Assembly: GCA_002696035.1 (NCBI GenBank)
Contig: NZQV01000026.1
Location: 186,001-250,000 of the forward strand
From: Balneola sp.
GTDB taxonomy: Bacteria; Bacteroidota; Rhodothermia; Balneolales; Balneolaceae
Length of the DNA stretch: 64,000 nucleotides
Direction of reading: 5' to 3'
Shown here: positions 26,716 to 62,567 of the stretch, piece after piece
Layout: each line of letters opens with the position of its first letter
How positions within the stretch are numbered: the stretch's first letter is position 1
Made by a program: the position numbers and the translations under genes
Notes under the pieces: model-generated
What the model was told of the DNA's origin: nothing
Database searches by the model: none
Seen by the model: only the letters and a program-made list of their open reading frames with translations

Positions 26716-26842
26716 CCTTCCTTCCATAGAGCCCACTTATAGTAAAGATCGCCAAATACAATGGTTTGTTAATGTTGAAAGGTTCAGATAAACCTTATCT
26801 TAAAGCACTCACAATTCACTCACTTACAAATTTCAGATTCTT

Positions 26843-58700: not shown

Positions 58701-59594
58701 TCATTGTTCCATATTCTTCAGGATCCCATCTTTCACATCGGTCAAACTTTCCACCTTTTCAAAGGACTGAACCGATTCTCCATGAACAAACAAGGGTACC
58801 ATATTCCGGGTGTGGGTTTTAGTGGAAAGATCTTCGAGGTTGCCGTGGTCGCTGGTTATGACCAAAGTATCACTGCTTTTCTTGTTTTTGATGATATGCA
58901 GCAGGAATTCATCCAAAGGTTTGAGAACGCGCTCGGCATCTTCCTGCTTTTGTTTGTGGCCGGCTTTGTCGGTTAGATAATATTCGTATAAAACCAGGTC
59001 ATAATCCGAGGCCACACTTAACAACCTTTCTGCTGCATCAGTTGGAGTGATCTTTGGAATATCGATTCCCAATTTTTCACGCCAGGCATTTTGGACGATC
59101 TCTGCCGTTAACGCTTCTTCATTCAAAACATCCTCAGTAGAGTTCAATTTCACCCCAGCACTTTTGGTCATTAGTGTGGTACAACTCCACCGATTTCGTT
59201 TTTTAGCATGCTGAAAGAAAATGGGCGGATAAGCATTCATAAAATACGGATTCTTTCCAGCTTCCTTCACTGCGTGAAAGATGCTTTCATTCTTCAGGAA
59301 GGGCTTGATGCCGGAGTGAGGAAATGGCCCAAAATGTTTGCCAATTTCTTTGGCTGCATTTTGTCCGGTAAATAGAGTGGTCTGTCCGGTTCCGCTTTGG
59401 GGCAATCCTTCTACACCCAGATTAGCATCGATAGGTTTGAATAATAGATCTTTTTGAAAGACTGGGTTTGCCTGATCATTGAATAAACCATCGGTCAGGA
59501 TCTCGAAAGACTCATACCTGTTTTCGCTGAAGGGATTTTCGGGAGCATCTTTTCCCAATCCTACGCCGTCAATAAAAATGAAAATAACTGCCAT
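58701..59594 (-). CDS. Alkaline-phosphatase-superfamily metalloenzyme (phosphomutase-like)
   Basis: The 297-residue protein has the metal-binding Asp in 'VIFIFIDGVGLGKDAPENPF', the catalytic Ser/Thr loop 'EGLPQSGTGQTTLFTGQNAA', 'YDLVLYEYYLTDKAGHKQKQ', and the second metal site 'LVITSDHGNLEDLSTKTHTR' with His pairs. The pattern resembles cofactor-independent phosphoglycerate mutase/phosphopentomutase enzymes but is shorter than iPGM (~510 residues), with a small cap domain. The substrate is not deducible. Followed upstream by a repeat element and dtd on the same strand. Confidence 0.85.
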   Translation of the reverse strand: MAVIFIFIDGVGLGKDAPENPFSENRYESFEILTDGLFNDQANPVFQKDLLFKPIDANLGVEGLPQSGTGQTTLFTGQNAAKEIGKHFGPFPHSGIKPFLKNESIFHAVKEAGKNPYFMNAYPPIFFQHAKKRNRWSCTTLMTKSAGVKLNSTEDVLNEEALTAEIVQNAWREKLGIDIPKITPTDAAERLLSVASDYDLVLYEYYLTDKAGHKQKQEDAERVLKPLDEFLLHIIKNKKSSDTLVITSDHGNLEDLSTKTHTRNMVPLFVHGESVQSFEKVESLTDVKDGILKNMEQ

Positions 59595-59627
59595 TGCTAA
59601 ATTTTAAACTAAGATAATTCTTCTTCT

Positions 59628-59780
59628 GTTGTCATCCTGAGCGCTCTAAAAGCTGAAATCTTGATCGCGAAGGATCTCAACGAATAATACAACCCATTAC
59701 TTTAAACTTTGTCCCGAGCATTCGGGATCGCGTAATACTACCCCTTCCCAATAACAATCTTAATGCGCTCGGGGTGACAC
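59628..59780. repeat. Interspersed element with tgtcatcctgagcg-type terminal inverted repeats
   Basis: The 16-base ends at 59629-59644 and 59765-59780 are inverted with 13 matches. A perfect central palindrome tcccga-gcat-tcggga (59712-59727) and a gcgaaggatctc segment lie between. The end sequence resembles repeats I recall from many bacterial genomes, including Bacteroidota. It fills the gap between two minus-strand genes. Confidence 0.6.
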
Positions 59781-59837
59781 TTATTACTGGTAATTTTATA
59801 TCAAAAAAAGAAGTCCTTAAACTAACATTGTATTATT

Positions 59838-60278
59838 CTACTTCTCTAAAATTATAGTAACCGGTCCATCGTTCTCGAGCTTTACACTCATCATAGCTCC
59901 GAATTCTCCGGTTTGGATATTCAGATCCGTATTGGTTTTGAACCACTCTATCATGTCTTCATACATGGGTTCGGCTTTTTCGGGACGAGCTGCTTCGATG
60001 AAACTCGGCCGGGTACCTTTATCGGAATTGGCATATAGGGTGAATTGGGAAACCAGTAAAACCCCACCTCCAACATCCTGTACTGATCTATTCATTTTGC
60101 CTTCCTCATCTTCAAATATCCGAAGCTTGGCAATCTTCTTACAGATCCATTCCATTTGCTCTTTGGTATCGTCCTCGTGTATTCCGATCAATACTAAAAG
60201 ACCTTGTTCAATGGCCCCGGTAATTTCCTTATCTACCATCACCGAAGAAGATTTCACGCGCTGAATGACTGCTTTCAT
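59838..60278 (-). CDS. dtd: D-aminoacyl-tRNA deacylase
   Basis: The 146-residue protein has the full Dtd signature: 'MKAVIQRVKSSSVMVDKEIT', the catalytic Ser-Gln motif 'LLVSQFTLYANSDKGTRPS', and the C-terminal Gly-Pro loop 'GAMMSVKLENDGPVTIILE'. It removes D-amino acids (and Gly from tRNA-Ala) from mischarged tRNAs in the cytoplasm. Length is standard. Its start abuts the oriC-like region, so its promoter must lie within or next to the DnaA-box cluster. Confidence 0.96.
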   Translation of the reverse strand: MKAVIQRVKSSSVMVDKEITGAIEQGLLVLIGIHEDDTKEQMEWICKKIAKLRIFEDEEGKMNRSVQDVGGGVLLVSQFTLYANSDKGTRPSFIEAARPEKAEPMYEDMIEWFKTNTDLNIQTGEFGAMMSVKLENDGPVTIILEK

Positions 60279-60775
60279 AAACTGTGGATATGTGGATTAC
60301 TATGTGGATTACTCATTGATAAAAGTTGGATAACTCAAACCGGTCATAATTGTCAACAGGTTTCAACAATTAAATACCTCTATCAACAATTCAAAAGAAT
60401 AACTTTTGGTGTGAATGATGGTTTGCTCACTTTTATGTTCAAAATATATAAACTTGTGGATTACTAATTTCAAACTCTTTTAAAGTACTGATTTTTAAAG
60501 GCGAGTTATACACAAAACTATCCACATGTTTTACGCACCTGCTTTATAAATCGGGATAAAAAAGTTATCCACTTATCCACACTCTCTACTACTATTATTA
60601 AACCAATTAAATCATATACTAATTATCTCTTAGGTGTGGAAAAGTGTGAGAAAAAGTTCAAAAAACACTCTGATATTCCTTCTATATTTGTGTGTTGTAA
60701 GCAATCAACAAAATATGTAGTGCATTCATCTACTTAGATCTTATTCACTACAAAACTTCTGATCTGATAGGATCC
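60279..60775. other. Candidate chromosomal replication origin (oriC) with DnaA-box cluster
   Basis: This 497-bp AT-rich gap holds many DnaA-box-like 9-mers. Minus-strand type: 60283-60291 (TGTGGATAT), 60291-60299, 60303-60311 and 60455-60463 (all TGTGGATTA), and 60635-60643 (TGTGGAAAA). Plus-strand type: 60506-60514 (TTATACACA), 60518-60526 (CTATCCACA), 60565-60573 (TTATCCACT) and a perfect TTATCCACA at 60573-60581. An AT-rich stretch (60588-60632) next to the tight pair at 60565-60581 could be the unwinding element. No dnaA gene is in the window. A -7-like TATATTTG (60683-60690) near the right end likely drives the next gene. Confidence 0.78.
60683..60690 (+). promoter_or_regulatory. Promoter -7 box candidate for the DinB/YfiT-purM unit
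   Basis: TATATTTG matches the TAnnTTTG consensus exactly and lies ~85 bp before the ATG at 60776. A clear -33 TTTG is not evident at the right spacing, so the call is moderate. Confidence 0.4.
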
Positions 60776-61300
60776 ATGAACAAGCAATTTCCCATCGGTA
60801 AACCCTCTTATTCCAAGAATCATTCTCTGGATTTACGAGAGCAATGGATCGATGATATAGCTTTACTTCCTGAGCGTATTCGAAATGAAATTAAAGGCTG
60901 TTCGGATGATGTACTATTGAGTCCTTATCGGGAAGACGGCTGGACCGTTCGGCAGGTGATTGAACATTTGGTAGACAGCCACATGAATACAGTCATTCGA
61001 ATAAAAACAGCACTAACTGAAGATGATCCAACCATTCGTCCCTACAATGAAACAGCCTGGGCTGAAGTTGGATTCCAGTTTGAAATTCCACTGGAACTCA
61101 CCCTCGAGATGCTGGAGAATATTCATGAGATCATTGTTCGTATCTATCAAAGCTTAGATGAGCAGCAATGGCAACGGACCTATACCAACCCAGAATCCGG
61201 CCAAACCTTTACGCTTGATCATTCCTTAGCCCATTATGCATGGCATTCCAATCATCATTTAGCTCATATTAAACTCGTAACCCAAGAAGAAAAATCGTAG
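60776..61300 (+). CDS. YfiT/DinB-family putative metal-dependent protein
   Basis: The 174-residue protein has the four-helix DinB_2 layout with metal-ligand histidines: 'TVRQVIEHLVDSHMNTVIRI' and 'AHYAWHSNHHLAHIKL', plus the opening 'FPIGKP' typical of YfiT/BstA bacillithiol S-transferase-like proteins. It may act as a thiol transferase or metal-dependent hydrolase; thiol identity is unknown, since bacillithiol is found in some Bacteroidota-related taxa. It is the first gene downstream of the oriC candidate and is followed 6 bp later by purM, so the two are co-transcribed. Confidence 0.85.
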   Translation: MNKQFPIGKPSYSKNHSLDLREQWIDDIALLPERIRNEIKGCSDDVLLSPYREDGWTVRQVIEHLVDSHMNTVIRIKTALTEDDPTIRPYNETAWAEVGFQFEIPLELTLEMLENIHEIIVRIYQSLDEQQWQRTYTNPESGQTFTLDHSLAHYAWHSNHHLAHIKLVTQEEKS

Positions 61301-61306
61301 CAATTT

Positions 61307-62314
61307 ATGTCAGATAAGAAACGAATGACGTATAAAGATTCCGGTGTAGATATCAAGGCCGGGGAAGAAATGGTAGAATCCATTAAGGGAGTAGTGAAAG
61401 ATACTCACGGACCGGAAGTACTACATAACATTGGAGGATTTGGAGGATTCTTTAAACCTGATCTGGGGTCCTATAAAAAACCGGTCTTTATCAGTTCTGT
61501 AGATGGTGTGGGAACGAAATTGATCGTTGCTTTTAAAGCCGGAAAGTATGAAACCGTTGGACAAGATCTTGTAAATCACTGTGTGAATGATATTGCTGTA
61601 TGCGGAGCCAAACCGTTGTTCTTTCTGGATTATTTTTCAACCGGTAAACTGGAACAGCATGTTGGGGTTGATGTGGTGAAAGGATTCGCCAAAGCCTGTA
61701 AGGAAAACGGTGTTGCTCTGATTGGGGGGGAAACAGCCGAAATGCCTGATATTTATGATACGGGGGAATTTGACCTGGCCGGAACCATTGTTGGAATTGT
61801 GGATGAAGACAAAGTGATCAATGGCTCTGATATTCAAAAAGGAGATGTGCTATTGGGATTCAAAAGCTCAGGATTACACACCAATGGATATTCCCTGGCT
61901 CGGAAAGTGCTCTTCAGTAAATACAAGGTTGAAAACTATGTAGAAGAACTTGGTAGTACCGTTGGGGATGAATTGCTGAAAGTGCATAGATCGTATTTGT
62001 CACTCATCACTGAATTAAAGGAACTGCCGGGTATAAATGGATTTTCCCATATCACCGGTGGCGGAATTGTTGGAAACACCAAACGCATTCTCCCCGAAGG
62101 AATGAAACTCGATATTGACTGGGATGCCTGGGAACGCCCGCCGGTCTATAATTTGATTCAAGAAATTGGCAATGTTCCCGAAGAGGATATGCAAGCCACT
62201 TTCAATTTAGGGGTTGGGTTGATCGCTGTGGTTTCAGAAAGCAAAGTGGATGCAGTGAAAGCAAAAGCTGAAGAGTTTGGAGAAGAGGTTATTTTGGTTG
62301 GTTCTGTAGTTTGA
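61307..62314 (+). CDS. purM: Phosphoribosylformylglycinamidine cyclo-ligase (AIR synthetase)
   Basis: The 335-residue enzyme of purine biosynthesis converts FGAM to AIR with ATP in the cytoplasm. Signature blocks are 'MTYKDSGVDIKAGEEMVESI', 'ISSVDGVGTKLIVAFKAGKY', 'VGQDLVNHCVNDIAVCGAKP', 'LFFLDYFSTGKLEQHVG', 'VALIGGETAEMPDIYDTGEF' and 'SGLHTNGYSLARKVLFS', ending with 'ATFNLGVGLIAVVSESKVDA'. Length is standard. No other pur gene is nearby. Confidence 0.97.
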   Translation: MSDKKRMTYKDSGVDIKAGEEMVESIKGVVKDTHGPEVLHNIGGFGGFFKPDLGSYKKPVFISSVDGVGTKLIVAFKAGKYETVGQDLVNHCVNDIAVCGAKPLFFLDYFSTGKLEQHVGVDVVKGFAKACKENGVALIGGETAEMPDIYDTGEFDLAGTIVGIVDEDKVINGSDIQKGDVLLGFKSSGLHTNGYSLARKVLFSKYKVENYVEELGSTVGDELLKVHRSYLSLITELKELPGINGFSHITGGGIVGNTKRILPEGMKLDIDWDAWERPPVYNLIQEIGNVPEEDMQATFNLGVGLIAVVSESKVDAVKAKAEEFGEEVILVGSVV

Positions 62315-62370
62315 AATTTTGAATGATGGATTGTGGATTTAAAAAAACTAACAATTAAAGATCTTATCCT

Positions 62371-62452
62371 CGCTCTGCGTTGGAGCGTATTTCTTAGTAC
62401 ATCAGTTATTTAAAAAAATATCCATCGGTTCCAACGCAGAGCGTGTGGAACC
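62371..62452. repeat. Interspersed palindromic element, GTTCC-GCAGAGCG family (copy 2)
   Basis: A 14-bp perfect inverted repeat (62371-62384 / 62430-62443) encloses 45 bp. The right arm also forms a small ggttcc/ggaacc hairpin (62427-62432 / 62447-62452) with the gcagagcg core in its loop, as in copy 1 at 11285-11354, with the arms in reversed order. Confidence 0.8.
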
Positions 62453-62567
62453 AGGTAAGGTAGAAGACTATCCGCTTAATCCGTGTTCTATTCCCATTTC
62501 TAAATAAGCCCCATCAATCCTATCTTCAGGCGGAAAATGATTCTAATTTTTTTATTCCAGATAAACT

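Follow-up and report, generated by a model that had tools for sequence, protein, structure and literature searches.

The elements of the basal unwinding system (BUS), as set out in parts of two papers (PMC8287927, PMC10721633), are two DnaA boxes, a spacer with a GC-rich region averaging 4 bp, and repeated 3'-GAT-5' DnaA-trios. The BUS-type oriC of Bacillus subtilis (DnaA-boxes 6/7 plus DnaA-trios), covered by the same parts of these papers, consists of tandem boxes, a short spacer and 3'-GAT-5' triplets, followed by the unwinding site. For Clostridioides difficile, the passages on oriC2 in PMC7561715 place a trio, 5'-CACCTACTACTATTACTACTATGA-3', upstream of the predicted unwinding region and locate DnaA-dependent opening in the same oriC2 region, which is part of a bipartite origin in the dnaA region. 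The oriC of Escherichia coli and that of Yersinia pestis lie between gidA and mioC, according to an excerpt of PMC10225481, and the relevant section on Melioribacter roseus, of the Bacteroidetes/Chlorobi group, gives a predicted oriC of 303 bp between dnaA and dnaN, with a GC-skew switch and DnaA binding sites (PMC3534657).

Here, we analyzed a window of 64,000 nucleotides (G000:C3:186001-250000) from the genome (3.97 Mb, 27 contigs) of a Gracilimonas-group bacterium of the order Balneolales. Our literature searches found no published origin for Balneolales, and no work pairing a Balneolota genus name with oriC was among the matches listed; computed catalogues, for example DoriC, could hold predictions for closed genomes. 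With high confidence, we conclude that this bacterium has its chromosomal replication origin, oriC, in the intergenic gap that separates dtd from the yfiT/DinB-purM unit. This reading, which an initial annotation of the window had put forward, is strongly supported by GC-skew minima, order-wide synteny and parS-like sites nearby. The gap is an oriC of the ordinary DnaA type. Its address, which is shared across the order, is unusual, and what is new is this address and its fixity in Balneolales, apart from dnaA and parB.

Like the B. subtilis origin, the gap has tandem boxes, a short spacer and 3'-GAT-5' triplets, followed by a proposed unwinding site; unlike it, the gap is not located beside dnaA and forms one continuous region from dtd to (yfiT)-purM. 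The C. difficile trio CACCTACTACTATTACTACTATGA, in the portion of PMC7561715 that deals with it, is much like the CTACTACTATTATTA of the gap, whereas dnaA is here on another contig. As in E. coli and Y. pestis, mnmG (gidA) is in the neighborhood, but in the window's genome the mnmG/rsmG junction is located 15 kb to the right of the core, with two parS-like sites at the junction, and the immediate neighbors of the gap are dtd and yfiT-purM. The combination of a GC-skew switch with DnaA binding sites is shared with the predicted M. roseus origin; the position between dnaA and dnaN is not.

The gap has a G+C content of 30% and contains nine DnaA-box-like 9-mers between 60283 and 60643 (at most one mismatch to TTATCCACA; starts and strands 60283-, 60291-, 60303-, 60455-, 60506+, 60518+, 60565+, 60573+ and 60635-). 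The box at 60573+ is perfect and shares one base with the end of the 60565+ box. The strict pattern TTATCCACA-N0-12-TTATNCACA gave no matches in the window's genome, because the two abutting boxes, TTATCCACT-TTATCCACA, have one T in common. The clustering is directly visible: at the same threshold, the whole window contains 37 boxes against 17.3 expected, and across 444 kb of the contig, 400-bp stretches elsewhere reach three at most. When the 497 bp of the gap were shuffled preserving dinucleotides (n = 5000), the mean was 0.25 boxes and the maximum three, and none of the 5000 shuffles reached nine.

All of the boxes named in the initial annotation, which had reported a dense cluster on both strands, are present, and so is the AT-rich tract that it had noted beside the tight pair. 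Pfam domains also bore out the flanking genes that it had named, Dtd, a DinB_2/YfiT-like protein and PurM. Its statement that the gap holds no ORF needs a small correction, since a mechanical 87-aa ORF with a TTG start (60204-60467, + strand) runs into the gap from the antisense strand of dtd; we regard it as probably not a gene. A known RNA element inside the gap was ruled out, as Rfam gave nothing above gathering scores at 59000-62500. A sigma-70 promoter scan found two promoters against a shuffle mean of 3.0, and hence no excess. The features of the region are collected in Table 1.

Table 1. Features of the probable oriC region and its flanking genes (window coordinates; box positions such as -8 are counted from the core, and fractions refer to the aligned sequences)
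Feature	Position	Strand	Basis or conservation
dtd, D-aminoacyl-tRNA deacylase, left landmark	59838..60278	-	PF02580, E 1.4e-61
Probable oriC region, whole intergenic gap from dtd to the yfiT/DinB-purM unit	60279..60775	none	Boxes, skew minimum, synteny
Left DnaA-box group: 60283-60291, 60291-60299, 60303-60311	60283..60311	-	
Palindrome AAAAGAATAACTTTT	60393..60407	none	Kept in the genus and part of the family
DnaA box TAATCCACA	60455..60463	-	Position -118 recurs in 13/29
DnaA boxes TTATACACA and CTATCCACA	60506..60526	+	Positions -67 and -55 recur in 18/29 each
Core tandem DnaA boxes TTATCCACTTATCCACA	60565..60581	+	Left box (position -8) in 29/29
4-nt spacer, core boxes to trios	60582..60585	+	
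Putative DnaA-trios: + strand CTACTACTATTATTA, i.e., 3'-GATGATGATAATAAT-5' on the - strand	60586..60600	-	
AT-rich (82% A+T) stretch, proposed unwinding element	60587..60631	none	
DnaA box TTTTCCACA, right end of the AT-rich stretch	60635..60643	-	
TATATTTG, possible promoter of yfiT-purM	60683..60690	+	TTCTATATTT or similar in many relatives (by eye)
DinB/YfiT-like protein	60776..61300	+	PF12867 (DinB_2)
purM, AIR synthase, right landmark	61307..62314	+	PF00586, PF02769

The left box group repeats the right core pair in inverted form (19 nt, 89% complementary, 261 nt apart), and its positions -282 and -270 from the core each recur in 10 of 29 aligned sequences. Its first box (60283-60291) starts four bases from the dtd start codon, and DnaA could therefore affect the expression of dtd. 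The exact core TTATCCACTTATCCACA is present as a single copy in the window's genome. By eye, most relatives have a box similar to TTTTCCACA at the same place, and some lack the DinB/YfiT-like gene between the gap and purM. The possible promoter element TATATTTG resembles the Bacteroidota-type -7 element.

To the right of the core pair, the 4-nt spacer is followed by five putative trio triplets, and when the following 40 bp were shuffled 200 times, only two of the shuffles scored this high. All nine genus members fetched, the window included, have an unbroken run of three to five triplets, and in the genus the predicted core layout matches the published BUS definition. Among 29 aligned sequences, a run of at least three triplets is kept in 14 under our scoring rule, and the other 15 are without a run of three NTN triplets within 8 nt of the core; the trios are therefore clear in the genus and degenerate or absent outside it. 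The mean trio score of the 29 sequences was 3.4 against 1.3 in shuffles that ignore how the core was picked. For this test, a core had to carry CTA 2-7 nt after the box, which partly builds the first trio into the selection.

By analogy with established DnaA and BUS biology, from which we infer the origin activity of the gap, DnaA would bind the boxes of the left group, those in the middle and the tandem pair of the core (60565-60581). A DnaA-ATP filament would then grow rightward from the core pair, over the 4-nt spacer and onto the - strand trios (60586-60600), and might open the AT-rich stretch up to about 60631. The helicase would be loaded at the opened stretch, and firing would send out two forks in opposite directions. 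Filament growth onto trios is a likelier step within the genus than outside it, where the sequence evidence is weaker.

If the gap acts as an origin, the GC skew should switch near it, and the initial annotation had proposed looking for a cumulative minimum within a few kb of 60.5 kb. Over the 444 kb of contig used (C3:6001-450000), the minimum was found at window position 61283, 0.7 kb from the core boxes; this figure overstates the precision, because the trough is broad, with a nearly flat curve from about 12000 to 68000, so that the switch is placed to some tens of kb. The 8-kb skew values of this contig are mostly negative to the left and mostly positive to the right of the minimum, so a switch near the site is seen directly. 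We ran the skew on stretches of 297-820 kb picked around dtd in five genomes, the window's and four others. In a member of the same genus (G006, 400 kb), the minimum was 44 bp from the orthologous core. The other three genomes represent three further families: in G026 (400 kb) the minimum lay 0.2 kb from the core, in G030, where 820 kb of its single 4.29-Mb contig were used, 2 kb from the first boxes, and in G028 (297 kb) 21 kb from the orthologous site. The G030 minimum is shallow: it reaches -4202, and a second dip, near 400 kb, comes to -3998, about 5% higher. In the window's contig, the keto (G+T) skew is lowest at window position 26830, 34 kb off. Mechanical ORFs show a weak strand bias to the right of the site (82 + versus 53 -) and none to the left (89 - versus 85 +), and within 100 kb to the left the bias is the opposite of that expected (40 + versus 32 -).

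The broad trough and the 21-kb offset in G028 would also suit a real start outside the gap, up to about 20 kb away, with the boxes as an accessory part of a divided origin; mnmG/rsmG, which includes the classic gidA landmark and lies at such a distance, would be a place for it. We consider this highly improbable, as the G006 and G026 minima fall practically on the core and no other cluster of more than three boxes per 400 bp was found in the stretches scanned.

The reading of the gap itself as oriC was also examined for conservation. We found dtd in 35 of 37 genomes, including the window's own, and 30 loci were fetched. In 27 of these 30, again counting the window's, at least four boxes lie in 400 bp beside dtd; of the other three, two include little of the gap (18 bp in L047, 200 bp in L040), and L045 has three boxes. 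The G030 gap between dtd and purM has seven boxes in 400 bp. Thirty sequences were aligned, 28 fetched loci plus L063 and L064, with L062 and L065 (which match L028 and L042) left out. A recognizable core is present in 29 of the 30 and missing in G029. The left core box (position -8) was found in 29/29 and the right box in 27/29 (at most two mismatches), the background for aligned box positions being 0.07 per position and strand at this threshold. The cores in the alignment were selected for a right box with CTA 4-5 nt behind it, so that the left box, but neither the right box nor the spacer, counts as independent evidence.

The core pattern TTDTVMACHWHTCMACANNNNCTA, which combines the tandem boxes with CTA, occurs once each in 54 of 117 genomes of the class, and its reversed control in none of the 117. 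Within the order, it was found exactly once in 46 of 57 sampled genomes, and in all 46 the match is flanked by dtd and purM and lies at 281-316 bp from the start codon of dtd, a geometry that can be read directly from the sequences. The alignment from which the pattern was drawn holds 19 of these 46 matches, and the other 27 are independent; 20 of the 46 come from the first dtd genome set (19 of them aligned) and 26 from genomes first drawn for the TTDTVMACHWHTCMACANNNNCTA scan. The pattern is absent from the remaining 11 of the 57 genomes, G030 among them; eight of these keep dtd and purM 461-585 bp apart, two have the two genes on different contigs, and in one no dtd was found. The dtd/oriC/purM synteny whose examination in relatives the initial annotation had suggested is thus kept across the order.

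Box clusters also occur at some plasmid origins, and one might take the cluster for the origin of a plasmid, or some other element, that has integrated. This reading has a negligible chance of being right in view of the skew minima, the housekeeping neighbors and the order-wide retention, with nearly constant spacing, between two housekeeping genes. A search for plasmids with Dtd gave no lead, and a plasmid-derived origin was rejected on the grounds that every one of the pattern matches across the order lies between dtd and purM.

An oriC beside dnaA is common but not obligatory. In the window's genome, dnaA is on contig C22 and dtd on C3, so that the gap is not adjacent to dnaA. Sixteen genomes of the order have both genes on one contig, 149-832 kb apart in 14 of them; the exceptions are G065 (about 46 kb) and G083 (about 400 kb if its single contig is circular). 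The 5' side of dnaA corresponds to L021:9582-9852 on contig C22. At the 5' end of dnaA, four boxes (at most one mismatch) lie in about 270 bp, among them two perfect boxes that are 99 bp apart in the window's genome and 97-99 bp apart when 10/10 relatives are included; a TTTTCCACA pair 11 bp apart is present in the window's genome and in 6/10 relatives. This box set probably serves DnaA autoregulation.

The box set beside dnaA speaks for a true origin there. The cluster in the gap would then serve DnaA titration or regulation, either in the manner of datA/DARS or by placing dtd and purM under DnaA control; with the left boxes at the dtd translation start, regulation of dtd is plausible in addition. 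The initial annotation had named an equally dense cluster next to dnaA as an argument against its own reading, and what we found there is four boxes against the nine of the gap. The skew is negative on both sides of dnaA in the window's genome (20 kb). In G030, dnaA is at position 691 of the record, and twenty spaced 20-kb samples were negative near both record ends and mostly positive at about 0.65-2.17 Mb; because of the negative values near both ends, there is no skew switch at dnaA in this genome. With fewer boxes and a negative skew on both sides, a dnaA-linked origin was rejected. A titration or regulatory role in place of an origin is also at odds with the skew minimum at or near the cluster in five genomes, with putative trios and an AT-rich element that would suit an unwinding site, and with the parS-like sites near the cluster, and we regard it as very unlikely.

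A chromosomal oriC is usually found near parS segregation sites where parS exists. We searched 12 genomes of the order, chosen mostly for long contigs, for TGTTNCACGTGNAACA, which we take to be the parS motif, with at most one mismatch. All 12 have parS-like sites 13-68 kb from the candidate origin, exact in eight and with one mismatch in four (G070, G083, G094 and G114), so that the linkage was observed throughout this sample. Five further parS-like sites were found, one per genome: those of G000, G087 and G094 lie on other contigs, that of G006 is 127 kb away and that of G083 39 kb. The reversed control gave one site in 3 of the 12 genomes. The pair at the mnmG(gidA)/rsmG(gidB) junction of the window's genome consists of two perfect sites (TGTTTCACGTGAAACA) 148 bp apart, at C3:261921 and 262069 (L011:11921 and L011:12069), about 12 kb past the right end of the window. 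The ParB_N match in these 12 genomes is on another contig or, in G001, G030, G049 and G083, at least 0.66 Mb off; the sole match in the window's genome is on contig C14. It thus seems that dnaA and parB can move away from an origin that keeps parS, and in the window's genome also mnmG/rsmG, in its vicinity.

These results locate the probable replication origin of a bacterial order and describe its internal anatomy, and they add a BUS-type origin in a group for which our literature searches found none described. The dtd/oriC/purM landmark can help to circularize genomes, to order contigs and to derive growth rates from coverage; a record that begins at dnaA, such as that of the single-contig G030, starts about 270 kb from the origin. 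A further idea, which we offer as an unlikely speculation, is that the cis-acting origin, uncoupled from the trans-acting dnaA and parB, has been fixed in the divergent dtd-purM promoter gap for the history of the order. The near-rigid 281-316 bp geometry would then give the assembled orisome a second role, as repressor or timer of dtd and purM, and would in this way tie purine synthesis and D-amino-acid proofreading to the initiation cycle.

Outside the order, the arrangement differs. Among the best 80 of at least 584 named dtd loci, four are from Balneolales and have six to eight boxes per 400 bp, and the other 76 have zero to two; a box cluster beside dtd is therefore not general. In 17 outside genomes with dtd and purM on one contig, the two genes were, by eye, never within 250 kb of each other. 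The TTDTVMACHWHTCMACANNNNCTA pattern was present in 8 of 60 genomes outside the order, one copy each (G115, G044, G113, G129, G088, G043, G117 and G086), and on its own contig none of these eight matches has dtd or purM closer than 300 kb. A dnaA-family match (PF00308) shares the contig in seven of the eight, at 9-70 kb, and a parS-like site does so in six, at 36-110 kb; the reversed parS control gave matches in three of the eight genomes. Sister lineages may thus start replication from a related core elsewhere in the genome; these sites are possible sister-lineage origins, located neither directly beside dnaA nor near dtd.
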